Positions 4,936 to 63,292 of a stretch of DNA of 64,000 bases are shown here, one piece after another. The notes under the pieces were generated by a model that had not been told where the DNA came from, made no database searches, and saw only the letters and a program-made list of their open reading frames with translations. Position numbers and translations under genes: made by a program. The stretch comes from Thioclava sediminum (GTDB lineage: Bacteria > Pseudomonadota > Alphaproteobacteria > Rhodobacterales > Rhodobacteraceae). Numbering within the stretch: the first letter of the stretch is position 1; every line of letters begins with the position of its first letter. Location of the stretch: positions 248,001-312,000 of the forward strand of contig NZ_MPZV01000004.1 of the NCBI RefSeq assembly GCF_002020355.1. The letters run 5' to 3'.

Positions 4936-5149
4936 GGCGAGGTGCTGAGCAGACTGAGCTGCGCCGAGCACAGTTCGCACGCGGTCGCACCCATTGGGCG
5001 CGGGTGCGTCCAAACTTTGGTTAACTCGCGTGCCTATTGCGGGCCGTGAGCGCAGGAGTTGGGAGGTGTAGAGAGGCCTCCACAGTGTAAACCGGCGAAG
5101 GACCAGTGTGTTTCGTCGGTCTGGAGGCGGCTCTATCGAACTGAAGGCC

Positions 5150-21542: not shown

Positions 21543-24254
<2,712 letters not shown>

Positions 24255-43829: not shown

Positions 43830-45155
43830 CTATCCCGGCACCTGCGACAGGATCGTGCGTAGCCGCGCGAAACTGCCCGAGATACCGTCGGGGGCGGGTT
43901 CGGCAATGAAGGCATCCAGCTCGGGCCAGAGCTTGATCGCCGCGTCGATACGCGGGTCCGAGCCTTCCGCATATAGCCCCGCCTGAATCATCATCTCGGC
44001 CCGGTCATAGGCGCCAAGCAGGCTGCGCGCCTTGCCAATAAGCCGGTTTTCCTCGGGATCCGCCGCGTCGGGCAGCGAGCGCGAAACTGAACGCAGCATG
44101 TTGATCGCCGGGAAGCGCCCCCGCTCCGCGATCTCGCGCTCCAGCACCACATGGCCGTCGAGCACGCCGCGCAGGATATCGGCGATCGGCTCGTCCATAT
44201 CGGAACCGGCCACCAGAACCGAGAAAACGCCGGTGATGTCGCCTTGACCTTCGGCGCCGGGGCCCGCGCGCTCGCCCAAGGCCATGATCTGATAGGAGGT
44301 CGAGGGCGGATAGCCGCGCAGCGAGGCGGGCTCGCCCCCGGCGAGCGCCACTTCGCGATGGGCTTCGGCAAAGCGCGTGATCGAGTCGGCGAGGAACAGC
44401 ACATGCTGGCCCGCATCGCGGAAATGCTCGGCCACGGCCATCGCAGTCCAGGCGCATCGGCGGCGCACCAGCGGCGATTGATCCGAGGTGGCGGCGACGA
44501 TCACCGCGCGGGCCATCCCCTCCGGGCCGAGCGTCTTTTCGACGAATTCCCGCAATTCCCGGCCGCGTTCGCCGATCAGCGCGATGACGACGATATCGGC
44601 CGACACCCCGCGCGCGAAACTCGCCAATAGCGAGGATTTCCCGACGCCCGATCCCGCGAAAAGGCCGACCCTTTGGCCTTGGACCAGCGGCAGCATCGTG
44701 TCGAAGGCGGCAAGTGACGTCTCCAACCGACCGCCCAACCGCTTGCGCTGGGCGGCAGGAGGCGGGCTTGCGCGCAAATCGCGCTCGCGCCCGCCGTGGA
44801 TCAGCGGTTGCCCGTCGAGCGGCTTTCCGAACGGGTCGATGATCCGCCCGACCCAGCTGTCATGCGGGGCGATCCCGCCCTGACCGAGCAGCTCCACCTC
44901 GTCGTCGATCGCCACGCCATCGGCGGCTCCGTCGGGCAGCACCGTGACCGCCCCACGCGTCAGCGACAGAACCTCCGCGCCGATTTCGCGCCCGCTTTGG
45001 CAGCGAATCGTCGCGCGGTCGCCGAGGGCCGCCGAACGGGCCAGACCGCTGACCTCGATTATCCCGCGCCGCACCTCGCGTACGCGCCCGACCGCATGGG
45101 CGCTGGCGATACCGCGCATTTCGGCGTGCAACAGGTCGAATCCTGCAAATGCCAT
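43830..45155 (-). CDS. fliI: Flagellum-specific ATP synthase FliI
   Basis: FliI is the ATPase of the flagellar type III export apparatus. The 441-residue product has P-loop GLFAGSGVGKSSLL (about 160-173), Walker B VLFLADSITRFAEAHRE (about 247-263) and PPSTSYQ, typical of F1-like export ATPases. It is divergent from the flgB operon; only 80 bp separate the starts, and the region holds a candidate CtrA box. Confidence 0.96.
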   Translation of the reverse strand: MAFAGFDLLHAEMRGIASAHAVGRVREVRRGIIEVSGLARSAALGDRATIRCQSGREIGAEVLSLTRGAVTVLPDGAADGVAIDDEVELLGQGGIAPHDSWVGRIIDPFGKPLDGQPLIHGGRERDLRASPPPAAQRKRLGGRLETSLAAFDTMLPLVQGQRVGLFAGSGVGKSSLLASFARGVSADIVVIALIGERGRELREFVEKTLGPEGMARAVIVAATSDQSPLVRRRCAWTAMAVAEHFRDAGQHVLFLADSITRFAEAHREVALAGGEPASLRGYPPSTSYQIMALGERAGPGAEGQGDITGVFSVLVAGSDMDEPIADILRGVLDGHVVLEREIAERGRFPAINMLRSVSRSLPDAADPEENRLIGKARSLLGAYDRAEMMIQAGLYAEGSDPRIDAAIKLWPELDAFIAEPAPDGISGSFARLRTILSQVPG

Positions 45156-46593: not shown

Positions 46594-47310
46594 ATGGATA
46601 ACGCAATCTATACCACCCTCACGCGGCAATCCGGCTTGATGCGCGAAATGCGGACCGTTGCGAACAATATCGCGAATGTCTCGACCACGGGCTTCCGGCG
46701 CGAGGGCGTGATTTTCTCCGAGTATCTCTCGGGGCTGGAGGGCAACGAACCCTCGCTGTCGATGGCGCGGGCGCATGGTCGGCTGATCGATCGAAGCCAA
46801 GGCGGGCTGACCCAGACAGGCGGCACCTTCGATTTCGCGATCGAGGGCGAGGGGTTCTTCATGATCGAGACCCCGCAGGGCAATCAGCTCACGCGGGCTG
46901 GCAGTTTCATCCCGTCGGCTGAAGGCGAGTTGCTTACGCCCGACGGGTACCGGCTGCTCGATTCCGGCGGTACGCCGGTCGCAATCCCCTCGGGGGCGAC
47001 TTCGGTCGCGCTCGCCGCCGATGGCACACTTTCGAACAACGGCCAGCCTATCGCGCAGGTCGGCGTCTACCTTCCCACCGATCCCAGTGAATTGCGCCAT
47101 GTCGGCGGCACTCGCTTCACCGCAGAGGCCGGGGCCGAACCGGTGGAGGGCGCGGTTCTGATGCAGGGGTATCTCGAAGACAGCAACGTCGATCCGATCA
47201 CCGAGATCGCGCGCATGATCGAGGTCCAGCGCGCCTACGAGATGGGCCAGGCCTTTCTCGAACGCGAAGACGAACGAATCCGCGGCGTCATCCAGACGCT
47301 CGCCCGATAA
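46594..47310 (+). CDS. flgF: Flagellar basal-body rod protein FlgF
   Basis: The 238-residue product has the rod motif NNIANVSTTGFRREGVIF (about 24-41) and a C-terminal GYLEDSNVDPITEIARMIEVQRAYEM signature. It is shorter than FlgG and precedes it, as expected for the proximal rod protein FlgF. Confidence 0.93.
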   Translation: MDNAIYTTLTRQSGLMREMRTVANNIANVSTTGFRREGVIFSEYLSGLEGNEPSLSMARAHGRLIDRSQGGLTQTGGTFDFAIEGEGFFMIETPQGNQLTRAGSFIPSAEGELLTPDGYRLLDSGGTPVAIPSGATSVALAADGTLSNNGQPIAQVGVYLPTDPSELRHVGGTRFTAEAGAEPVEGAVLMQGYLEDSNVDPITEIARMIEVQRAYEMGQAFLEREDERIRGVIQTLAR

Positions 47311-47325
47311 CAGGAGGCCCAGGAC

Positions 47326-48111
47326 ATGAGAGCGCTTCAGATCGCAGCCACCGGCATGAGCGCGCAGCAGATGCGCGTCGAGGTGATTTCCAACAACCTC
47401 GCGAACATGTCGACCACTGGCTACAACGCGCGCCGCGCCGAGTTCGCCGATCTGCATTACCAGCAGATGACCCGCCCCGGCACGATCAACGCGACCGATG
47501 GCACGACCATCCCCGCCGGGGTGCAGCTTGGCCTCGGGGTGCGCCCGACTGCCGTGACGGTCAACATCGCGCAAGGCTCTCTCAGCGCGACGGGCGGCGA
47601 TCTGGACCTCGCGATCGACGGCAATGGCTATCTCGAGGTGACGCTGCCCTCGGGCATCTCCGCTTACACGCGCGACGGTGGGCTCAAGCGCAATGGGACT
47701 GGCCAGATCGTGACCTCTGACGGCTACCCGGTCGTGCCCGAGATCACCATTCCGAACGACGCGCGCGCCGTGGCGATCAACGCGCAAGGCGAGGTTTATG
47801 CCTATTTCAGCAATCAGGTCGCGCCGCAGCTTCTCGGCCAGTTCACCTTGGCGAATTTCTCAAACCAAAAGGGGCTGGAGGCGATTGGCTCGAACCTGTT
47901 TCTCGAAACCGGGGCCTCGGGGCCGCCCAATGTGAATACGCCCGGCGCGGATGAGTTGGGCACGCTGCGGCAGGGGTATCTGGAGGAAAGCTCGGTCGAT
48001 CCGGTGCGCGAGATCACAGAGCTGATCAAGGCGCAGCGCGGCTACGAGTTGAACGCGAAGGTCATTTCCGCCGCCGATCAGATGCTTGGCGCGACGACGC
48101 AGGTGCGGTGA
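47326..48111 (+). CDS. flgG: Flagellar distal rod protein FlgG
   Basis: The 261-residue product starts MRALQIAATGMSAQQM and has NNLANMSTTGYNARRAEF and the C-terminal GYLEESSVDPVREITELIKAQRGYELN, diagnostic of FlgG. Its TGA overlaps the ATG of flgA. Confidence 0.96.
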   Translation: MRALQIAATGMSAQQMRVEVISNNLANMSTTGYNARRAEFADLHYQQMTRPGTINATDGTTIPAGVQLGLGVRPTAVTVNIAQGSLSATGGDLDLAIDGNGYLEVTLPSGISAYTRDGGLKRNGTGQIVTSDGYPVVPEITIPNDARAVAINAQGEVYAYFSNQVAPQLLGQFTLANFSNQKGLEAIGSNLFLETGASGPPNVNTPGADELGTLRQGYLEESSVDPVREITELIKAQRGYELNAKVISAADQMLGATTQVR

Positions 48112-49281: not shown

Positions 49282-49812
49282 ATGCTTGGTAAACTCCTCC
49301 CGCTTCTTCTCGGTCTGATCGGCCTCGCCGGCGGCGGCGCGGCCGGATATTTTCTGCGCCCCGCCCCACCGCCCGCAGAACATCCCACAGACCCGGCCGC
49401 TGCGGAGGCGGCAGCAGGAGATCACGGCGCCGCAACGGAGGCTCATGGGGTCCCGGCCGCTGCCGACCATGGGGCCGAGGGTGATGTCACCTCCGAATTC
49501 GTCAAGCTCAACAACCAGTTCATCGTGCCGCTGGTAACCGAGTCGCGAATCTCCGGCATGGTGATCCTGTCGCTCAGCCTCGAGGTGAAGGTCGGTGAGA
49601 CCGAGGCCGTCTACCGTGCCGAGCCGAAACTGCGCGATGCGTTCCTGCAGGTACTGTTCGATCACGCGAATACGGGGGGATTTCAGGGCCTGTTCACGGA
49701 TTCCGCGAACATGTCGCGCCTGCGCCGGGCCCTGACCGAGACCGCGCGTAGCATTCTAGGTCCCGGTGTCCTTGCGGTCTTGGTCTCCGATATCGTGCGT
49801 CAGGACAGCTAG
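49282..49812 (+). CDS. FliL-family basal body-associated protein, first copy
   Basis: The 176-residue product has an N-terminal transmembrane helix (about 4-25), an Ala/Glu/His-rich linker (about 27-67) and a FliL-like periplasmic domain (about 70-176, FVKLNNQFIVPLV and FSANMSRLRRALTETARS-type helices, with LVSDIVRQ at the end). FliL regulates stator function. A second, more typical FliL lies at 59217. This copy ends the flgB operon and may have a distinct task. Confidence 0.75.
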   Translation: MLGKLLPLLLGLIGLAGGGAAGYFLRPAPPPAEHPTDPAAAEAAAGDHGAATEAHGVPAAADHGAEGDVTSEFVKLNNQFIVPLVTESRISGMVILSLSLEVKVGETEAVYRAEPKLRDAFLQVLFDHANTGGFQGLFTDSANMSRLRRALTETARSILGPGVLAVLVSDIVRQDS

Positions 49813-49855: not shown

Positions 49856-50215
49856 TCAGCGCGGTTCGCCTCGTTTCGGGTGACCGAGTTTCGTGACAAC
49901 GTCATGGCGGCCCACCGCGCGCGCGGTTGCGCCATGCTGCGCAGCAAGCGCGGGGTCGAGCTCCTTCCGCGCGGCACGTAGCCGCGTGTCTTCCAGCGAC
50001 AGGTAGCGCAGATAGGCGAGGGTGTTTTGCCCCGAGGCTGGTTCCTGCGCGAGCGTCTCCCGGGTTGACCGCTCCTCTGCCTGAAGGCTGGCAATTCGCG
50101 CATCGAGCGCGCGCGCCCGGGCGTTCAGCCGCGCGAGCGCTGCAAGCTCCGCCTCCCGCTGCATACGGGTCAATCGGGCGAGCGCCGCCAGCCGCTTTAC
50201 CTGCAATTTGCTCAT
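49856..50215 (-). CDS. Small coiled-coil protein, FliJ-like by position
   Basis: The 119-residue product is almost entirely helical and charged (VKRLAALARLTRMQREAELAAL), ending in a basic tail. Its start overlaps the flhB stop by ATGA. FliJ, the coiled-coil stalk of the export ATPase, has this length and character and is otherwise absent from the window, so FliJ is the likeliest assignment, but no sequence signature settles it. Confidence 0.6.
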   Translation of the reverse strand: MSKLQVKRLAALARLTRMQREAELAALARLNARARALDARIASLQAEERSTRETLAQEPASGQNTLAYLRYLSLEDTRLRAARKELDPALAAQHGATARAVGRHDVVTKLGHPKRGEPR

Positions 50216-51303
50216 TTGCGCCATGCCGCACCTCCGCGGACCGCCCTGCGCATCTTCTCCGCAAAGCGGATCGCGGCCGCCACGGGTTTGTAGTGCTCCG
50301 GCCGGATTTCCTCGCCGATCTCGATCGCCGCGAACAGCGCCCGCGCGGTCGGCGGGTCCGAATGCACGGGCACCGCGTTCTCCGCCGCGATCTCGCGGAT
50401 CCGCGCAGCGATCGCATCAACTCCTTTCGACAGGCAGACCGGCGCCCTCCCCGAGGCGCGATCCCATTTCAGCGCGACCGCGTAATGGGTCGGGTTGACG
50501 ATCACCACATCGGCCTTGGCGGTGTCGGGAACCGATTGCCGCATCGCAAGCTCCATCCCCTTCTGACGTCGCTGTGCCTTCAGATGAGGATCGCCTTCGG
50601 ATTGCTTCATTTCGTCGGTCAATTCCTTGCGCGTCATCCGGTTTCGGCGCAGGAATTCGGACCGCTGCCAAAGATAGTCGATCGCGCCCATCGTGGCGGC
50701 GAGGGCAGTGACGATCATCAGAAACTCGGCGATCATCCGAAACAGCAGCCCCACGATCTGCACCGGTTCGAGACGCTGCGTGAGCAAAATCAGATCGGCG
50801 CGCGCCTTGAGGTAAATGAAAAGAATCGTCGCGATCACCGCGAGTTTCGTCGCGCTCTTGGCGAATTCGAACAGCCCACTTCGTCCGAATTTCTGCGCAG
50901 CATTCTTCAGCGGATTGATCCGGCTGAGCTTTGGCTGGATCTTGTCGGGCGCCACCACGATCGCGCGTTGTGCCCAGTAGGCGACGAGCGCGGCGATCAT
51001 CGGCACCACGAAAAACGGCGCGAGCGGCAGGAGCAGCGTGCCGATAATCCGCCCGCCCAGGGCCGTCCCACCACCGAGAAACTGCGCGGCCATCTCATCG
51101 GCGCGATCCAGCATCGCCATCGCGCCACTGCCGAACCGCGTCACGCTGTAGATACCCAGGCCGAGCAGCGTCGCGAGAAAGCTGCCATAGACGGCGGCCA
51201 CGGAAATCTCGGTCGAGCGCACCAGATCGCCCTTGCGCCGTGCCGCGTCCAGCTTATGCGGGGTTGGATCGAATTCCTTTTCGCCGGTGTCGTCTTCGCT
51301 CAT
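50212..51303 (-). CDS. flhB: Flagellar export switch protein FlhB
   Basis: The 363-residue product has four transmembrane helices in the first 215 residues and the cytoplasmic domain with the self-cleaving NPTH motif in VIVNPTHYAVALKW (about 267-280). It controls the export specificity switch from hook to filament. It starts within an ATGA overlap with fliR. Confidence 0.96.
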   Translation of the reverse strand: MSEDDTGEKEFDPTPHKLDAARRKGDLVRSTEISVAAVYGSFLATLLGLGIYSVTRFGSGAMAMLDRADEMAAQFLGGGTALGGRIIGTLLLPLAPFFVVPMIAALVAYWAQRAIVVAPDKIQPKLSRINPLKNAAQKFGRSGLFEFAKSATKLAVIATILFIYLKARADLILLTQRLEPVQIVGLLFRMIAEFLMIVTALAATMGAIDYLWQRSEFLRRNRMTRKELTDEMKQSEGDPHLKAQRRQKGMELAMRQSVPDTAKADVVIVNPTHYAVALKWDRASGRAPVCLSKGVDAIAARIREIAAENAVPVHSDPPTARALFAAIEIGEEIRPEHYKPVAAAIRFAEKMRRAVRGGAAWRK

Positions 51304-52088
51304 TGCACGGCTCCGAACGGGTTGCCGAGGAAGGCCATGACCGCCTCGCGCCAGATCGCGACGGTAGTGGGCGCGCAGAGGGCAAGCAGGATCAGCCCGC
51401 CTGCCGTGAGTGCCGGGGCGCCGACGAACGCGACCATGAGCTGCGGCATGGCACGGTTAATCGCGCCAAGTGCGACGTTGTAAATCAGCCCGGTGACCGC
51501 GAAGGGGGCGGCGAGCTTGAAGGCGAGCGAAAACGCATGCGCGACACCCGATACGCCCCAGCGCCGCAGCGCACCCGGATTGGGCCATTCGCCCACCGGT
51601 AACACCTGATAGGTGCCGATCAGAAACTCGATGAGCTGGACGTGAAACCCGAGGCTCATCAGCACCGCGATCCCGGCGATCAGCAGGACATTTCCGATCG
51701 CGGGTTGCGGTTCCCCGCCCATTCCGCCGAGCAGCTGGGAGAGCGAACTCGACTGCGCCGCCATTGTGCCTGCGATTTGCAGAGCGAAGACAAAGGTGCG
51801 CAATCCGAAGCCAAGAAAGAGGCCGATCGCGATTTCCGAGGCCAGCCAGAGCGGCAGAACCGTCCCTTGGTCGAAACTGGCGAGCGTCGGTGCGAGGGCC
51901 GGAATCGTCACCAGGGTTATCGCGAGGGCGACCCCCGTCTTGATCCGCGCCGGCAGGCTCGTCTCGCCAAAGCCCGGGGCCATGGCGACAATCCCGCCCA
52001 CCCGCAGCAAGACAATGAAACCTATGAACAAAAAGCTTCGTGCTTGTTGCAGGATCTCGCTGAGCAGATCGAGAAGCGACGGGCTCAT
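51300..52088 (-). CDS. fliR: Flagellar export gate protein FliR
   Basis: The 262-residue product has about six hydrophobic helices with FRVGGIVAMAPGFGETSLPARIKTGVALAI-like arrangement (residues about 20-60) and ATMAAQSSSL, typical of FliR/SctT. Four-base overlaps with flhA and flhB show a tight export-gate operon. Confidence 0.95.
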   Translation of the reverse strand: MSPSLLDLLSEILQQARSFLFIGFIVLLRVGGIVAMAPGFGETSLPARIKTGVALAITLVTIPALAPTLASFDQGTVLPLWLASEIAIGLFLGFGLRTFVFALQIAGTMAAQSSSLSQLLGGMGGEPQPAIGNVLLIAGIAVLMSLGFHVQLIEFLIGTYQVLPVGEWPNPGALRRWGVSGVAHAFSLAFKLAAPFAVTGLIYNVALGAINRAMPQLMVAFVGAPALTAGGLILLALCAPTTVAIWREAVMAFLGNPFGAVQ

Positions 52089-54172
52089 GCGGGGACCTGT
52101 CCGACCATCGCGGGCCGCGCCTCCAGGCCGATTTCTTCGTAGCTCAGGACCGGCGCGTTCAGCCCTTTCGCATTGATGACCGTACGCAAAAACCGCCGCC
52201 TGCGCCCTGAAGAGACCAGTGCCGGGAACGTCCCTGCTTGGGCCGCCCCGGCGAGTTTCTCGGCGATATTCGCCGCCAGCTTGTTGAACAGGTCAGGTGG
52301 CAAGGCGACATCACTGCCCGCCTCACCCCCGATCGTGTATTTTCCGAAGCGTTCCTCCCAATCGGGCGCCAGTTGGATTAGGGGAATCGTGCCGTCCTCG
52401 CGACGCAGATCGGCAACGAGCTGGAAGCCGAGGCGCTGCCGCACATGTTCGCAGATCTGCTCGGGGCTTTGCAGGTGACGCGCCTCCGAGATCGCCTCGA
52501 CGATCAGCAGAAGGTTGCGGATCGAGACTCGTTCATCGAGCAGTAGCCTTAACACCGAAAGCAGCAGATCGACCGGCACCTTGTCGGGGATGAGCTCGTC
52601 GAGAACGCGTCGATTGGCCTGCGCGCGTGTCGGATCGGAGAGGTTCGCGACTTCGTCGAGCAGCCGCCGCAGCGCCCGCAACGTCATCAGCCGCGAGAAG
52701 TTCGCCTTGATCACTTCGAGAAGATGCGTCGCGAGCACCTCCGTCGGCCCGACCACCGTCGAGCCGGCGAGCGCCGCGTCTTCCTGCTGATGGGCGGGCA
52801 CCCAAAGCGCGGGCGCGTGGAACACCGGTTCGCGGACCTCCTCGCCGTCGGGCAGAAAATCGCGATTGTCCGCGATCAGCGCAAGAACATGCTCCGGCAT
52901 CAGCCGATCGCGTGCCTGCTCCACACCCTGAACGCGGATGCGGTAATGACCGGGCGGCAAGGTTGCGTCGTCGGTCAGGCGAATTTCCGGGAGGATCAAT
53001 CCGAAATTCGCCGCGACGTGATTGCGCATGTTGGAGATGCGCGCGTCCAGACCCGTCGCCGGATCGAGCGCCATCTTGACCAGATCCGGGGCGAATTCGA
53101 CATGGATATCGTCGATGTCGAGTACGTCACCCATGGATTTCTGCTTCGGCCCGGTCTCCGGCGCGGGCATTTTCATCGCCTCGCGCCGCGCACGCGCCCG
53201 CTCCGCGCGCCGCAGCATATAGGCTGCCGTGCCGAGGATGGCGGCCCCCGCGGTGAAAGGCACGAAGGGGAGGCCCGGCACGAGACCGAAAAGCGCCATC
53301 AAGACCGCAACGGTTGTCAGGGCGGCCGGATATTTACCAAGCTGGCGGAACAACTCCAGATCGGTGGAGCCTTTCGCCCCTCCGCGCGACAGCAAGATGG
53401 CCGCTGCGATCGAGATGATGACCGCCGGTATCTGGCTGACGAGGCCGTCGCCGACCGTGAGGATCGCATAGGTCTCAAGCGCGCGATCGAGCGGCATTCC
53501 ATGCACGACGGTGCCGATAAGCAGCCCGACCACGAGGTTGAGCATCGTGATTAATAGCCCTGCGACCGCGTCTCCTTTGACGAATTTGGATGCCCCGTCG
53601 AGCGAGCCGAAAAAGGTGGTTTCCGCCTGCTCGCGTTCGCGCCGCTCTCGCGCCTCGGCATGGTCGATGGCGCCCGCATTCATGTCGCTGTCAATCGCGA
53701 GCTGCTTACCCGGCATCGCGTCGAGCGCGAAGCGCGCGCCGACCTCGGCCATGCGCCCCGCACCTTTGGTGATCACGATGAAATTCACGATCAGGATCAC
53801 GCAGAACACGACCAGCCCGATCAGGACCGAGCCGCTCATGATGAAATTCGCGAACCCTTCGATAACGCCGCCCGCCGCACCCGTGCCCGTGTGTCCGTTT
53901 CCGATGATGAGTTTCGTCGAGGTAACGTTGAGCGACAGCCGCAGCATGAGCGTCGCAAGGAGAATGGTAGGAAAGGCGGAGAAATCGAGCGGACGTTCGA
54001 TGAAGAGGGTGACGGTGAAGATCAGGATCGCGAGGGCGAAAGAGGTGGCGAGACCGATGTCGAGAATCCAGGAGGGCACCGGCAGGATCATCATCGCGAT
54101 GACCGCCATCAGCGCGAGCGCCAATAGGATCGTTGGCTGAAACGCGCGTTGCACGAGCGGAGCCGCCATCAC
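52085..54172 (-). CDS. flhA: Flagellar export gate protein FlhA
   Basis: The 695-residue product has eight transmembrane helices, the GFANFIMSGSVLIGLVVFCVI and GRMAEVGARFALDAMPGKQLAIDSDMNAG (FHIPEP) signature (about 145-175), and a cytoplasmic docking domain with VGPTEVLATHLLEVIKA and the linker. It overlaps the lytic transglycosylase gene upstream by four bases. Confidence 0.97.
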   Translation of the reverse strand: MMAAPLVQRAFQPTILLALALMAVIAMMILPVPSWILDIGLATSFALAILIFTVTLFIERPLDFSAFPTILLATLMLRLSLNVTSTKLIIGNGHTGTGAAGGVIEGFANFIMSGSVLIGLVVFCVILIVNFIVITKGAGRMAEVGARFALDAMPGKQLAIDSDMNAGAIDHAEARERREREQAETTFFGSLDGASKFVKGDAVAGLLITMLNLVVGLLIGTVVHGMPLDRALETYAILTVGDGLVSQIPAVIISIAAAILLSRGGAKGSTDLELFRQLGKYPAALTTVAVLMALFGLVPGLPFVPFTAGAAILGTAAYMLRRAERARARREAMKMPAPETGPKQKSMGDVLDIDDIHVEFAPDLVKMALDPATGLDARISNMRNHVAANFGLILPEIRLTDDATLPPGHYRIRVQGVEQARDRLMPEHVLALIADNRDFLPDGEEVREPVFHAPALWVPAHQQEDAALAGSTVVGPTEVLATHLLEVIKANFSRLMTLRALRRLLDEVANLSDPTRAQANRRVLDELIPDKVPVDLLLSVLRLLLDERVSIRNLLLIVEAISEARHLQSPEQICEHVRQRLGFQLVADLRREDGTIPLIQLAPDWEERFGKYTIGGEAGSDVALPPDLFNKLAANIAEKLAGAAQAGTFPALVSSGRRRRFLRTVINAKGLNAPVLSYEEIGLEARPAMVGQVPA

Positions 54173-54999: not shown

Positions 55000-57309
55000 T
55001 CATTCCTGCGCTGTCGGCAAGGCAAGACGGTTGAGCATTTTCGACAGCGTTTCCCGCTCGGCTTGGCTTCGCTCCAAAAGGTTGCGCGCCTGAGTGATCG
55101 GGCCGCCTTGGACCTCCGCCTCAGGCGGAGGCGGCGCAACGAAAGTTTCCAAAAACTGCTTCTCCACCGCATCGGGCGAAGTCTCCAGGTTTGACCAGTC
55201 GCCCTTATGCCAGGACTGCGCGCGCGCATCGTCTGAATTGCCCGCGCGCAGGTAGGCGGCGCGCGCGTCGTTGTGTCGACCGAGCCGGGACAAAGCCTCC
55301 GCCCGGAGTTGCTCGACTTGCTGACCGCCGAGGCCCTTCAGATGGGCGAGGGCAGCTGCAGGGTCCATTTCAAGAAGCGCAGCCCGAGCGAGCAGCGTTT
55401 TGTCCTGCTCCGTCAGTGGCGCGGCCTTGCCGAGGAGGCGCACGGCGACTGCCGGCATTCCCAGAGAGATTGCGCGTCCAGCCAGTTCATGTCGCAGGTC
55501 CGGTATCTGCGCGACTTCCTCGGAAAGTGGCAATTCGTCGTAGAGGGTTCGAAGGAAAACCGCGTCGCTGGCTTGAACAACCAACCGTGTGAATATTGCC
55601 GCGAGCGTGCCGTCTGGGTCCGCGATCGTGGTCGCATCGGCATAGATATCAAAGGCTTTAGGAAATTCGGAATTCGCGGCGTGCCCGATCGCAGCGATGC
55701 GCCGCAGCTCCGGTGCCTCTGGCGCTTTGGCGAGTTCGAATGCGAGCGCCTCAGCATTGGCGAGAGCTGCCGGATCGACCTCTCCGCCTGCATCGATCTG
55801 GCCGTTGAGCCACAAGATCAACGCGCGCAACCCTTGCTCTGAATTCGTCTTCGAAAGCGCCTCAAGGTTACCCAAAGCTTGTGGATCCGCTTCTTTCGCT
55901 TGGATTTCCGCCTCCACTGTATCAAGCGCAGTTCGATCCTCCGTGGTTATTCGGCTGACCGCAGGTTCGAGAGACCTCGCCACATCCGCTGCCCCAATCT
56001 GCATGAGCCTAGCCACAAGGTTTGGTGCCAGAGACCGTCGCAGATCCACCGGAAGTGCTTCGAAATTTCGGCGGAGCGCGGCGAATGCGACATCTCGTTT
56101 TTCGGGCGGCGGGTCTGATGCAAGGAAAGCCCAAAGCGCGACCGCACCATCGCAATCTGTGAGCCGCGCGAGCGGCGATGCGGCGGCGGCAGGGTCCTGA
56201 TCGAGAACCGATCCGACAAAGAGCAGAGCATCTTTGCCAGGACCATCCTTACCCATGTCGCGCAAAAGCGCGCGGGATTCCGTCCCAAAGCCGAAGGCGA
56301 TGTATAGCCTTGCCAAAGCCATCACCTTACGCGGGTTGGGGACGTCGAATTCGCCCAAAAGATCACGGCGTGCATCGCTGATCTGCGCGAAAGCCGGGCG
56401 CTCGTCGATCCAGCTCGCGAGGTCGAAATATCGATCGGGAGGGCATGCGGATACCTCCAGTTGCGTCTGGGGTGGCGTGACAAGATGATCGCGATCAATC
56501 ACGGTCATCGAGTCGACGGCGAGATGCGGCGGCAGTGTCGGCGCGGGGGGACCCATCGGATCATAATCGCTCTCAGGGGCCGCCTTGCTTGCAGGAGACT
56601 TTGCTTTTTGCCCGCTTTTTTCGGGCTGGGCCTCTGAAGGCTTCACGTGAGCCGAGACGAGCCCCTGCGATGCCGCCCGCGAAATCTGGCGTAAGAGGCT
56701 CTCTTCAATGCCATCAAGTCGCGGATCCGGTCTCGGCGGGATTTGAGGTTTGGGCGCGCCGTCAGAGATCGTCATCGGCGCAGCAGCGGTTTCGCGCGTG
56801 CGCGGCGGCTGCCAGAAGAGGTCGAGGTAGTCCTGTCCAATCGCGACGGGCTGAACGGTTCTTTGCCGGGGCGGGGAGGATGGCCGCGGCGCATTCGTCG
56901 GCGAAGATTTGGCCCGATCGCGAACTGCCGCAGCTGACGCCAGCGCGGCTTGATCTGGGGGTGCATCCTTGAGGTCGATGACGAATGCACCGCTTTCGAG
57001 AGTAAAGGTTTCGGGAACGACCTCGGGAGCGAGTTTCAGACGAAGCGTGCCATCCGGTTCAGCAATAAGTGCTTTCAACCTCTCACGCGGGATCAACTCG
57101 AACACGTTCTGAATCGCATATTGCGGATCTGATGCGTCGGTCGCGAGGCGAAAACCTCCATCTACGGGTGCAAGAGCCCGACTGGCTGATGCGGGCAGAT
57201 AGACTACGAGGCGGGAAAAGCCGTCATGTTCGCCCGATTTGACCGGAATTGGCGTGGCATAAGCCGGAGTGAAGGGCAGCAGCAAAAGAAGCGCGATCCA
57301 GAACCTCAT
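55000..57309 (-). CDS. 769-residue periplasmic motility-operon protein with helical repeats, function unknown
   Basis: It has a signal peptide (MRFWIALLLLLPFTPAYA), an N-terminal beta-rich domain (about 20-120, SRLVVYLPASAS), a Pro/Ser/Lys-rich linker (about 130-275), and a C-terminal helical-repeat region (about 290-760) that resembles TPR/solenoid repeats. There are exactly two cysteines (in SACPPD and LTDCDG). Its ATG overlaps the motA stop by four bases, and the SLT gene follows. By context it is a stator or motor accessory, comparable in position to MotC of rhizobia or MotF of R. sphaeroides, but sequence motifs do not confirm either. Confidence 0.7.
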   Translation of the reverse strand: MRFWIALLLLLPFTPAYATPIPVKSGEHDGFSRLVVYLPASASRALAPVDGGFRLATDASDPQYAIQNVFELIPRERLKALIAEPDGTLRLKLAPEVVPETFTLESGAFVIDLKDAPPDQAALASAAAVRDRAKSSPTNAPRPSSPPRQRTVQPVAIGQDYLDLFWQPPRTRETAAAPMTISDGAPKPQIPPRPDPRLDGIEESLLRQISRAASQGLVSAHVKPSEAQPEKSGQKAKSPASKAAPESDYDPMGPPAPTLPPHLAVDSMTVIDRDHLVTPPQTQLEVSACPPDRYFDLASWIDERPAFAQISDARRDLLGEFDVPNPRKVMALARLYIAFGFGTESRALLRDMGKDGPGKDALLFVGSVLDQDPAAAASPLARLTDCDGAVALWAFLASDPPPEKRDVAFAALRRNFEALPVDLRRSLAPNLVARLMQIGAADVARSLEPAVSRITTEDRTALDTVEAEIQAKEADPQALGNLEALSKTNSEQGLRALILWLNGQIDAGGEVDPAALANAEALAFELAKAPEAPELRRIAAIGHAANSEFPKAFDIYADATTIADPDGTLAAIFTRLVVQASDAVFLRTLYDELPLSEEVAQIPDLRHELAGRAISLGMPAVAVRLLGKAAPLTEQDKTLLARAALLEMDPAAALAHLKGLGGQQVEQLRAEALSRLGRHNDARAAYLRAGNSDDARAQSWHKGDWSNLETSPDAVEKQFLETFVAPPPPEAEVQGGPITQARNLLERSQAERETLSKMLNRLALPTAQE

Positions 57310-58175
57310 GCCGCCTCCGATTTCACCGACTTCAAAGCCTCCTCGAGGTCGGAGAAGCTTGGGCGAATGTGGTGGGGTGTGTTCTGGCGACCGACCTCGA
57401 TGCAGATATTGGTTGCGTGATTGTGCAGGTTGGCGATCAACACCTCGCGGATCAGTTTGTAGAAGTGGCTGTCTTCGTCGATCACCCCCTTCATCCGGCT
57501 CGCGAAGGGGGCGATGAACCCGTAGGCGAGGAACACGCCGAGAAAGGTCCCGACAAGCGCGCCCCCGATCATCTTGCCGAGAATTTCGGGGGGCTGGTCG
57601 ATCGACCCCATAGTCTTGATGACCCCGAGCACCGCCGCGACGATCCCGAGCGCGGGCATCGCATCGGCGACCGACTGCATCGCGTGGCTCGAATGCATGG
57701 CGTGGTGGTAGTTCGCCTCGAGCTGCTTATCGAGCACCTCTTCCACTTGCATGGGGTCGTCGTAATTCATCGAGGCCGATCGCATCGTATCGCAGATGAT
57801 GTCGATCGCCTCGTGATCGTGCAGGATTTTCGGATACTTCCCGAAAATCGAAGAACTCTCCGGGTCTTCGATATGCTCTTCGATCGCGACGGGGTTCTGA
57901 CGGGCAAGCCGGATCAGTTCGAACAACAGGCAAAGAAGATCGCGGTAGTCGTCAGGCTTCCATTTCGGTCCTTTGAAAACCTTTCCGACATCCTTCAGCG
58001 TGTGCTTGATCGAGGCCATGTCGTTCGACAGAACGAAGGCGCCGACGGCGGCGCCGCCGATCATGATCATCTCGAAGGGCAGGGATTTCAGGATGATCCC
58101 CATCTTCCCGCCCGCCGCGACATAGCCGCCGAAAACCATCGCGAAGATGATCACGATGCCGATGATGCCGATCAT
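57306..58175 (-). CDS. motA: Flagellar motor stator protein MotA
   Basis: The 289-residue product has the four MotA transmembrane helices (about 1-22, 34-50, 168-195 and 200-220), the cytoplasmic loop and the A-V-x-x-A-M-P-A-L-G-I-V-A-A-V-L-G-V segment (ADAMPALGIVAAVLGV) of the MotA/TolQ/ExbB channel. No motB gene lies in the window, so the partner is encoded elsewhere. It overlaps the 769-residue gene downstream. Confidence 0.95.
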   Translation of the reverse strand: MIGIIGIVIIFAMVFGGYVAAGGKMGIILKSLPFEMIMIGGAAVGAFVLSNDMASIKHTLKDVGKVFKGPKWKPDDYRDLLCLLFELIRLARQNPVAIEEHIEDPESSSIFGKYPKILHDHEAIDIICDTMRSASMNYDDPMQVEEVLDKQLEANYHHAMHSSHAMQSVADAMPALGIVAAVLGVIKTMGSIDQPPEILGKMIGGALVGTFLGVFLAYGFIAPFASRMKGVIDEDSHFYKLIREVLIANLHNHATNICIEVGRQNTPHHIRPSFSDLEEALKSVKSEAA

Positions 58176-59830: not shown

Positions 59831-61456
59831 TTGCAGCAACTCATCGACACTTGGGCCGGCCTGGATATGCGCAGGAAACTCGCCGCAGTTTTTGGGGTGA
59901 TCGCCATGATCGCCACGGTTTTCGCCATCGGGTCGATCGCGTCGAAGCCGACGCTTGCGCTGCTTTACGCGGGGCTTGGCAGTGCGGAATCAGGGGAGGT
60001 GATCTCGGCGCTCGAACAGCGCGGTGTGGCCTACGAGGTGCGTGGCGATTCGATTTTCGTGGCCGCACCGCAGCGCGACGAATTGCGGATGACGCTTGCC
60101 TCGCAGGGTCTGCCCGCGAGCGGCGGGGCGGGCTATGAACTGCTCGATTCGCTGTCGGGTTTCGGCACGACCTCGCAGATGTTCGACGCGGCCTATTGGC
60201 GCGCGAAAGAGGGGGAATTGGCGCGAACGATCGCCGCCGTGCCGTCGATCCGATCGGCACGGGTGCATATCGCGCATCCGACGAATATGCCGTTTCGCGG
60301 AACACCCGAGCCGACGGCCTCGGTGACGATCACGCCGACGCTCGGGGGCTTGAGCGGCGCGCAGGCAAAGGCGGTGCGCTATCTCGTGGCCTCGGCGGTG
60401 ACCGGTATGACGCCCGAAGATGTCTCGGTGATCGACTCGGCGCGGGGGCTCATCCCCTTTAACGACAATCCCGCGCTGACCGGCAGCGGGGAAGATCGCG
60501 CGCAAGCGTTGAAGCAGAATGTCGAACGGCTGCTCGAGGCGCGTGTGGGGGCCGGAAACGTCGTTGTCGAAGTGGCGCTCGACACCGCGACAGAGCGCGA
60601 GGCGATCACCGAAAGGCGCTTCGATCCGGAGGGGCGCGTGGCGATTTCCACCGATACGTCGGAGACCTCGAAGACCTCCGACTCGACCACGCCACCGGCA
60701 ACGACCGTGGCCTCGAATCTGCCCGATAACGGCACCGGCGAGACCGGAAAATCGCAAAGCCGTACGAGCGAGACCCGCGCGCGCACCAATTTCGAGGTGT
60801 CGGAGACGCGCCGCGAATTGCTGCGCGCGCCCGGCGCACTCAAGCGGCTCAGCGTGGCCGTGCTCGTCGATGGGGTGCGCGGGACCAACCCGGATGGAAC
60901 GCCAAGCTGGGAACCACGCAGCGATGCCGAACTGGCCGATCTGCGCGAACTCGTCGCCTCGGCGGTCGGGTTCGACGAGGCGCGTGGCGACGTGATCACC
61001 CTGCGGTCGATGCAGTTCGAGGCGCTGCCAGACGCGGGAACCGTCGCAGGGCCCGGCTTCATCGACAGCATGGCGCTCGATCTGACGCAGATCATCCAGA
61101 TCGCGGTCCTTGCGATCGTCGCGCTCGTGCTTGGTCTCTTCGTCGCGCGCCCGATCCTGCTGCAGAAATCGCGTGCAGGCGCGGCGGAACTGCCCGCGCC
61201 CAGCGCCTCGGAGGAGGGCACCACGGCGTCGACGGCGCTCACCGGTGAAATCGACGACGGAGACATGCCGGACATGAACATGCAGCTGGTGTCCGATTTC
61301 GACCTCGGTGACCTGCCGATGGCGACACAGGCGGATTTCGACCTCGACCGTCCCGCCGACCCCGTCGACCGATTGAAGAAGATGATTGAGGAGCGGCAGG
61401 CGGAAACCGTCGAAATCCTGCGTAGCTGGATGGAAGAGTCGTCGGAGAAAACATGA
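59831..61456 (+). CDS. fliF: Flagellar MS-ring protein FliF
   Basis: FliF forms the MS ring. The 541-residue product has two transmembrane helices (about 18-38 and 420-445), ring-building motifs in the N-terminal half (LYAGLGSAESGEVISALEQRG, ARVHIAHPTNMPF, GLIPFND) and the C-terminal cytoplasmic tail that binds FliG. The start is a TTG at 59831 with GGAGG 6 nt upstream; no ATG fits. fliG is not downstream. It is first in fliF-fliH-like-fliN-fliP. Confidence 0.95.
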   Translation: MQQLIDTWAGLDMRRKLAAVFGVIAMIATVFAIGSIASKPTLALLYAGLGSAESGEVISALEQRGVAYEVRGDSIFVAAPQRDELRMTLASQGLPASGGAGYELLDSLSGFGTTSQMFDAAYWRAKEGELARTIAAVPSIRSARVHIAHPTNMPFRGTPEPTASVTITPTLGGLSGAQAKAVRYLVASAVTGMTPEDVSVIDSARGLIPFNDNPALTGSGEDRAQALKQNVERLLEARVGAGNVVVEVALDTATEREAITERRFDPEGRVAISTDTSETSKTSDSTTPPATTVASNLPDNGTGETGKSQSRTSETRARTNFEVSETRRELLRAPGALKRLSVAVLVDGVRGTNPDGTPSWEPRSDAELADLRELVASAVGFDEARGDVITLRSMQFEALPDAGTVAGPGFIDSMALDLTQIIQIAVLAIVALVLGLFVARPILLQKSRAGAAELPAPSASEEGTTASTALTGEIDDGDMPDMNMQLVSDFDLGDLPMATQADFDLDRPADPVDRLKKMIEERQAETVEILRSWMEESSEKT

Positions 61457-62052
61457 TGGGGCAAAGGCTGAAACTGGAATCCTTTGAGCCGAACTCGGCA
61501 GAGGCGGGTGAAATCGCGCTCGCGCCGGCCGAGTTGGAAGAGGCCAAACTGGCCGCCTTCGAGACCGGATATCAGGCCGGGTGGGACGATGCCGTTGCCG
61601 CGCAGAATGCGGAAACCGCGCGGCTCCACGCCGATCTCGGGCGCAACCTGCAGGCGCTGGGCTTCACCTATCACGAAGCGCGCCAGCACATGCTCGACGC
61701 GCTCGAGCCGCTTCTGATCGAGATCTGCGGCAAGCTGTTGCCCGAGCTTGCGCGCGCGTCGCTTGGCCCCGTCGTGGCCGAGCGATTGATGCCGATTGCC
61801 GAGGATCTCTGCGCGACGCCGATTACGGTGGTCGGCAATCCGTCCGCACTGCCGCAGATTCAAGAGGCGCTCGCACCACGTGCAGACTTGCCACTCGTCT
61901 TCGCGGCAGAGCCCAGTCTTGACGAGGGTCAGGTCTATCTGCGCTTCGCCGATACCGAGACCCGCGTCGATCTCGACGCCGTCATCGCCGCCATTTCGCG
62001 CGCGGTCACGACCTATTTCACCGCCACCGCGAAGGACAAGCCCGATGAATGA
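61453..62052 (+). CDS. FliH-like export ATPase regulator
   Basis: The 199-residue product has an acidic helical N-terminus, then a FliH/SctL-like helical and C-terminal beta region (about 90-190, with LLIEICGKLLPELARASLGPVVAERL and GQVYLRFADTETRVDLDAVI). Position between fliF and fliN fits FliH, which regulates FliI. The start overlaps the fliF stop. Confidence 0.75.
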   Translation: MMGQRLKLESFEPNSAEAGEIALAPAELEEAKLAAFETGYQAGWDDAVAAQNAETARLHADLGRNLQALGFTYHEARQHMLDALEPLLIEICGKLLPELARASLGPVVAERLMPIAEDLCATPITVVGNPSALPQIQEALAPRADLPLVFAAEPSLDEGQVYLRFADTETRVDLDAVIAAISRAVTTYFTATAKDKPDE

Positions 62053-62323
62053 GACCGCGCCGGACGCTTCGACCGCCAATCCCTTCACGCAGGTTCCGAT
62101 CGAGATCACCATCTCGGTTGGCAAGGCCCGCCCGCTGGTGCGCGATTTGCTGCGCCTGAAGCGCGACGCCGTGCTGCCGCTCGACCGGAAAGTGGAGGAC
62201 CCGGTGGAGCTGTATGTCGGGGACAAGCTGATCGCGCGCGGCGAGCTGACAGAGATCGATGGCAGCGACGGGCAGCTTGCGGTGCGGCTTACCGAGGTGG
62301 CCGATCTGCAAAACGGGTTGTGA
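62045..62323 (+). CDS. fliN: Flagellar C-ring protein FliN
   Basis: The 92-residue product is a single SpoA domain: VPIEITISVGKARPLVRDLLRL and GDKLIARGELTEIDGSDGQLAVRLTEV are FliN signatures. It overlaps the end of the fliH-like gene by 8 bp. FliM and FliG, its C-ring partners, are not in the window. Confidence 0.93.
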   Translation: MNETAPDASTANPFTQVPIEITISVGKARPLVRDLLRLKRDAVLPLDRKVEDPVELYVGDKLIARGELTEIDGSDGQLAVRLTEVADLQNGL

Positions 62324-62324
62324 G

Positions 62325-63109
62325 ATGCGTCCTAGCCCGATCTCCCCCGGCGCCGCCACGATATGCCCGCCAGCGCTTTGGCTCGTCCCGCTCGCCGCAT
62401 TAACCTTAACGCTCGCGGCGCTACCCGCGCAGGCTCAGGACATTACGCTCTCTGTCGGGGAGGGCGACAGCCTCGCGAGTCGCTCCTTGCTGATCATTGC
62501 GGCGATCACGCTGCTCAGCCTCGCGCCCGGGCTCGCGATCATGGTCACGGCCTTTCCGTTCATCGTCACGGTGCTGTCGATTCTGCGCCAAGCCCTCGGG
62601 TTGCAGCAATCGCCGCCGAATATGCTGATCATCAGCCTCGCGCTGTTCCTGACATGGTTCATCATGGAGCCGGTCTTCCTTGAGAGTTGGCGCGTCGCGG
62701 GCCAGCCCCTGATCGACGGCGCGATCGACTGGCAGGAGGCTTTCACCAAGGGGATCGAGCCTTTCCGCGCCTTCATGGCCGGGCGCACGAATCCCGACAC
62801 CTTCGCAGCCTTAGCCGAGTTGCGCAGCGGCACGCCCGCACCGGAAAGCCTGGAGGGCGCGCCGCTCTCGACCCTGGTACCGTCCTTCATGCTGTCCGAA
62901 GTCACCCGCGCCTTCCAGATCGGCTTCCTCGTTTACCTGCCGTTTCTGATCATCGACCTCGTCGTCTCGTCGTCTCGGCGGTTCTGATGTCGATGGGGAT
63001 GATGATGGTGCCGCCCGCGGTCGTGGCGCTTCCGTTCAAGCTCGCCTTTTTCGTGGTGGCGGACGGCTGGGTGCTGCTCTCGGGGGCCTTGGTGCGCAGT
63101 TATTTCTGA
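62325..63109 (+). pseudogene. fliP: fliP, frameshifted by an 8-bp tandem duplication
   Basis: FliP is an essential membrane component of the flagellar export gate. Residues 1-212 read as normal FliP: signal peptide, ITLLSLAPGLAIMVTAF, RQALGLQQSPPNM, LSTLVPSFMLSEVTRAFQIGF. After LPFLIIDLVVS the frame ends in SSRRF and a TGA at 62985, cutting the last two-helix part. The missing end (SAVLMSMGMMMVPP ... LVRSYF) is intact in the next frame to 63109. The cause is an exact duplication of GTCGTCTC (62961-62968 and 62969-62976). Removing one copy restores a 258-residue FliP. The TGA also overlaps an ATG (62987) that could restart a 40-residue C-terminal piece. Confidence 0.88.
62958..62977 (+). repeat. 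8-bp period tandem repeat within fliP
   Basis: A 20-base tract has period 8 (2.5 copies). Two full copies of GTCGTCTC cause the fliP frameshift. The length is a typical site for replication slippage, in either direction. Confidence 0.9.
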
Positions 63110-63184: not shown

Positions 63185-63233
63185 TGGTGAGCCGTGCAGG
63201 ATTCGAACCTGCGACCCACTGATTAAAAGTCAG
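63185..63233 (-). pseudogene. 3' fragment of tRNA-Lys(UUU), integration site (att) of a genomic island
   Basis: The last 49 bases of a tRNA-Lys are present: anticodon stem-loop with CTTTTAA (anticodon UUU), variable loop, T arm with GGTTCGAATCC, acceptor 3' strand and encoded CCA. The D arm and 5' acceptor strand are missing; the sequence to the right no longer matches a tRNA beyond anticodon-stem position 28. The break in the anticodon stem, followed by an integrase gene, is the classic scar of tRNA-targeted integration. The intact tRNA copy should lie at the far end of the element. Confidence 0.85.
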
Positions 63234-63292
63234 AAGGTCCATACGCCAGACGATCAATCTCATGCATAAGCATCCGTTCTCAGCGCATATTA

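Follow-up and report, generated by a model that had tools for sequence, protein, structure and literature searches.

The window analysed here, a stretch of 64,000 nucleotides corresponding to bases 248001-312000 of contig C4, carries a flagellar fliP gene that lacks one continuous frame to the FliP C terminus, which raises the questions of how this gene came to be broken and what its loss means for the flagellum to which it belongs. The genome, that of a marine bacterium, comprises 4.13 Mb in 8 contigs and is 99.99% complete, and by FliP its closest named relatives are Thioclava (Thioclava sp. JE_KL1, 96%), in the Rhodobacterales. The part of fliP before the frameshift (62325..62987, plus strand) runs from an ATG at 62325 to a premature TGA at 62985-62987 and specifies a product of 220 aa, made up of about 215 of the 258 FliP residues and a short foreign tail. 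Within the gene, GTCGTCTC occurs twice, head to tail, at 62961..62976 (plus strand), enclosed in a 20-base tract of period 8 at 62958..62977 (plus strand); the 16-mer formed by the doubled GTCGTCTC has a single occurrence in the assembly. The C terminus, lost from the protein, is found in the -1 frame at 62984..63109 (plus strand), which is open throughout (AVLMSMGMMM...LVRSYF). A preliminary description of this DNA had reported an exact 8-bp tandem duplication in fliP, a frame running into TGA at 62985 and a remainder of the gene left in another frame, and all three are confirmed here, the other frame being open to 63109. Its figure of 258 residues for the restored FliP is also in agreement with the length of the intact FliP of the close relative G014, counted from the matching start.

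Searches with the Pfam FliP model (PF00813) matched the gene in two separate pieces, the first at C4:310505-310972 (172.4 bits, profile positions 2-154) and the second at C4:310966-311091 (55.1 bits, profile positions 150-191). Solved FliP chains align up to query residue 216, which corresponds to residue 202 of a 245-residue FliP chain. The lost tail amounts to 43 residues, 27 of which fall in columns conserved at 95% or more, compared with 64 of the 173 residues between query positions 41 and 213.

The gene set around fliP can be assigned from its order. According to the available text of PMC12363192, the fla1 operons of Rhodobacterales are motB-flgE-flgK-flgL-flgI and fliF-fliH-fliN-fliP, and both orders occur in this genome. 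The latter is found at 59831-63109 on the plus strand, where fliF, encoding the MS-ring protein (59831..61456, an open frame), is followed by a gene in the fliH position (61453..62052) that has no Pfam match and is placed by the operon order fliFHNP, by fliN (62045..62323, 92 aa; Pfam FliMN_C, E 5.5e-20) directly upstream of fliP, and by fliP itself. The former lies outside the window at C4:98417-104844, with a flagellin-C gene in the flgL position; its motB, flgE, flgK, flgL-position gene and flgI are open frames in the conserved order. Also open in the window are motA (57306..58175), flhA (52085..54172), fliR (51300..52088), flhB (50212..51303) and a fliI-type ATPase gene (43830..45155) on the minus strand, and fliL (49282..49812) and two FlgE/F/G-family rod genes, taken from their order to be flgF and flgG (46594..48111), on the plus strand; a flagellin gene on contig C2 is open as well. 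On these sequence grounds, the set in the window is the ancestral fla1-type flagellar system.

Related fliP loci were compared at the site of the frameshift (n = 138; L006-L114 and L149-L177), a collection in which the same genomes are partly repeated and which contains 122 distinct FliP segments. The site is spanned by 136 of the 138 loci, the other two being one contig that ends before it. All 136 are open through the site to the C terminus, so the comparison with relatives that the preliminary description had proposed turned up no FliP that stops early at this point. The tandem 8-mer is present at none of the 136 covered sites, which come from other species and not from strains of the same species. 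The exact 12-mer CTCGTCGTCTCG, without a second copy, is found at 12 of them, and this 12-base form occupies the site in the three closest relatives, G014, G012 and G006. Within a genus sample, fliP was matched in 15 of 15 genomes and could be read through the site in 14, and a survey of the family returned a fliP match in at least 308 of 394 genomes. One fliP match in another family member (G296:C4:151374-152108) is reported with one in-frame TGA.

The length of the repeat is not significant taken alone: three period-8 repeats occur in the window, simulated 64-kb windows average 2.0 and 2.2, and 0 of 60 and 2 of 60 of these contained a period-8 tract of 20 bases or more. It is the absence of the duplication from the relatives examined, and not its length, that identifies it as new and rules out a chance repeat as the explanation; a repeat characteristic of the genus is ruled out by its absence at all 136 sites. 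The two remaining tracts of period 8, at 21763 and 40630, are both common to G014, one of them with one base changed, and are therefore old.

The lesion stands out against the condition of the rest of the window. Positions 1-63233 align to G014 with an identity of about 96.4%, and of the frame-breaking indels in this alignment only the 8-bp insertion can be placed inside a conserved gene. The remaining indels are intergenic or cancel within a few bases, apart from a 2-bp indel at 5129, near the uncertain start of an ORF at 5108. Other indels in the 20-kb flagellar stretch are limited to 1 bp between genes and a 3-bp gap with respect to two of three relatives. The 1-bp intergenic indel is the sole other one in the G014 alignment of this stretch, as expected from the earlier statement that the other flagellar genes of the window are intact. 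Upstream of the lesion, the codon changes in fliP that are private to this genome comprise 2 nonsynonymous and 5 synonymous ones; of 16 cluster genes counted, 14 have more synonymous than nonsynonymous changes. The fliP mutation looks on balance to be recent and the fla1 set to be still under constraint, on what are small numbers. The reading of fliP as an old pseudogene is not supported: protein-changing substitutions are not in excess in this gene, and a search of the window's fla1 genes revealed no further lesion. Two genes depart from the pattern and speak against uniform constraint on the fla1 set, namely fliR, with 6 nonsynonymous to 4 synonymous private changes, and the gene at 55000-57309, with 31 to 27. 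The latter is a fast-changing gene of the flagellar cluster that encodes 769 aa with no Pfam match and occupies the place that the P. inhibens gene order would assign to CP4.

We consider the fliP duplication to be a recent spontaneous loss-of-function mutation, arising either in nature or in culture, and assign this reading a probability of about 0.72. In the ancestral CTCGTCGTCTCG, as found in G014, G012 and G006, the motif CTCG recurs 8 bases apart (CTCG-N4-CTCG). During replication of this sequence the new strand may have slipped between the two CTCG copies, with the result that 8 bp were duplicated. Slippage had been proposed in the preliminary description, and it is indeed the likely cause, because the 4-bp CTCG match predicts both an 8-bp product and a tract of 20 rather than 16 bases. 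The duplication shifts the frame about 215 residues into the 258 of FliP, so that the final 43 are lost; loss of the FliP export gate would in turn prevent the fla1-type flagellum from being built, and swimming may be left to a second, fla2-type set. As the copies stand in tandem, collapse to one copy would be possible at a low rate, and the mutation would be revertible in principle. Microhomology-mediated tandem duplications, described for fungi in the accessible part of PMC13207564, involve a short direct match, fall in coding regions, disrupt the frame and may collapse. The present duplication shares these features, and the two copies of its short match are spaced by one repeat unit in the ancestral form of the gene. 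It differs in being bacterial; its match is 4 bp long and its unit 8 bp.

Other origins of the repeat are less probable to different degrees. Assemblers can go wrong at short tandem repeats, and the present sequence comes from a single assembly that carries a duplication found at 0 of 136 related sites; an error of assembly or consensus, or a minority state in a mixed culture taken up as the consensus, would mean that most cells have one copy and an intact fliP. We regard this as unlikely, since a tract of just 20 bases is shorter than ordinary reads and the site, about 311 kb into a contig of 458,820 bases, is far from the ends. In addition, the 63-kb comparison with G014 yielded no further frame-breaking indel that could be assigned to a conserved gene, and the second flagellar cluster is free of net frame-breaking indels as well. 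Some insertion sequence families make 8-bp duplications, IS66 and IS256-type elements among them, and an exact 8-bp duplication could be the footprint of an excised transposon. The probability of this is slight, as the four extra matching bases that extend the tract from 16 to 20 would be a coincidence after excision, whereas slippage predicts them; of the two families searched, IS66 has no match in the genome, and the IS256-type model gave one partial match with a stop.

It is also conceivable that fliP is still functional in two parts. The premature stop overlaps an ATG in the frame of the C-terminal piece (TGATG, 62985..62989, plus strand), and a putative restart at ATG 62987 would yield 40 aa (MSMGMMM...), only three short of the 43 lost residues, so that pieces of 220 and 40 residues might assemble into a working FliP. 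The break interrupts a hydrophobic, strongly conserved part of the protein, and the ATGs at the break are the Met codons conserved in FliP, both of which argue against this proposal, and we give it hardly any credence; we know of no split FliP. A programmed -1 frameshift was also considered and rejected, as no XXXYYYZ heptamer occurs in the whole frame overlap (62684-62985).

The preliminary description had raised the possibility of a reversible on/off switch for motility. A 20-base tract of period 8 can drop one unit by slippage, and fliP is a target of slipped-strand changes elsewhere, in Helicobacter pylori and, as far as the available literature text goes, in Campylobacter, so gain and loss of the 8-mer could in principle toggle the fla1 flagellum within a population. 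In a contingency locus, the repeat should persist across related strains and both states should be seen. Here there are two repeat units only, and no second state was seen in the one genome available; among relatives, which are other species, the repeat tract is not kept, as a second copy is present at 0 of 136 sites and the exact ancestral 12-mer stands bare at 12 of the same 136, which argues that fliP does not maintain the tract. A contingency switch at this locus is accordingly quite improbable in our analysis, and the proposal of a reversible switch is not upheld. A version of it in which gain and loss of the 8-mer turns fla1 off reversibly, such that fla1 and fla2 swimmers coexist as a split population, is rated somewhat lower again.

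Slippage in fliP is also described from other flagellated bacteria. On/off switching of H. pylori fliP by homopolymer length was reportedly described by Josenhans et al. in 2000; as in the present gene, the frameshift results from a slipped-strand change inside fliP. The H. pylori homopolymer is reversibly variable, whereas the present fliP has an 8-mer in two copies, known in a single state from a single genome, and the relatives examined lack the duplication. In laboratory evolution of Campylobacter jejuni, flagellar genes including fliP were lost by slippage-type mutations, mainly easily revertible ones, according to the portion of PMC7677240 at hand. The present fliP resembles these cases as a slippage-type loss of a flagellar gene; those mutations concern homopolymer tracts in culture, and this one is an 8-mer duplication read from a genome sequence alone. 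Frameshift loss of flagellar genes is a known kind of event, and the present case is ordinary in kind. Among the literature matches listed, none reports a fliP tandem duplication or slippage case, or a flagellar contingency locus, like the present one.

Immediately downstream of fliP, a 13.8-kb genomic island is inserted in a tRNA-Lys gene, extending from window position 63185 to L118:14162 (C4:311185-325162). At the fliP end it has a 3' tRNA remnant, followed by a phage-type integrase gene from 63451 onward, and at the far end a complete tRNA-Lys, and it is absent from this fliP-adjacent site in G014, G012 and G006. The tRNA-Lys called by ARAGORN at 63185-63256 is probably an attachment-site remnant, because its 3' part alone matches the gene at L118:14087-14162. 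One island gene encodes Schlafen/AlbA and ATPase domains, and many have no family match. The 653-residue island protein encoded at L118:4589-6550 has no Pfam match and shows similarity to phrog_21712 (a phage major head protein family, E 5e-11) and phrog_5880 (E 2e-21).

A second flagellar cluster is located on contig C1, at about 1452-1483 kb (L116, L117). It encodes its own FliP, in an open frame of 318 codons, together with FlhA, FlhB, FliR, FliF, FliG, FliM, FliN, FliE, FlgI, FlgK, FlgD, FliK, hook and rod family proteins, flagellin and a flagellin-like protein in the flgL position. Alignment to G014 revealed no net frame-breaking indel inside these flagellar genes, all indels other than multiples of three being intergenic (one of them at a gene edge, L116:16896) or cancelling. 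Second FliP matches are also present in G006, G008, G009, G012, G013, G014 and G015, those of G008 and G013 being more divergent (38% identity). The C1 FlhA is 71.7% identical over 96% to the plasmid-borne FlhA of Marinovum algicola DG 898, in a comparison made among plasmid records only, with a fla2 but no fla3 reference. DG 898 is the fla2 reference strain in the available text of PMC12363192, and on the likeness of its FlhA to that plasmid copy, within the plasmid records, the C1 cluster is predicted to be fla2-type. The genome resembles the two-flagella Rhodobacterales of PMC12363192, as far as that text describes them, which have fla1 together with fla2 or fla3, in having the same fla1 operons and a second cluster, and differs from them in having one broken fla1 gene.

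FliP is the core of the flagellar export gate. Because this protein loses a strongly conserved stretch of 43 residues, the fla1 flagellum should not assemble, as far as sequence permits a prediction. With fliP closing its operon and the tRNA-Lys remnant following it, no polar effect on another flagellar gene is expected. The gene is present in the gene table of a transposon motility screen of Phaeobacter inhibens, in the part of PMC12363192 available. The preliminary description spoke of motility being switched off, which does not follow: the second flagellar set, with its own intact fliP, was missed there because it lies outside the window. According to the accessible text of PMC12363192, each of the three cluster types of Rhodobacterales can alone confer swimming, and with a second cluster in the genome the fla1 lesion need not abolish motility; swimming may continue through the predicted fla2 flagellum. 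In Cereibacter sphaeroides, cells bearing both of its flagella were never detected, according to the available portion of PMC7277832.

Motility also varies among Thioclava for reasons besides a fliP frameshift. The available text of PMC5508018 describes strain 11.10-0-13 of T. marina (there spelled "marinus") as without flagella, and its fliP (L037) is open through the frameshift site. Among the Thioclava papers listed, including the available portions of PMC5508018, PMC9226611 and PMC12798012, none ties a motility phenotype to the present genome. The finding carries the warning that one broken flagellar gene in a member of the Rhodobacterales is no ground for describing it as non-motile. If the fliP sequence is right, assembly may be possible for the second set alone, and the organism would be a natural fla1-null with a visibly undamaged fla2-type cluster, in which swimming by fla2 alone could be tested for this genus without engineering.
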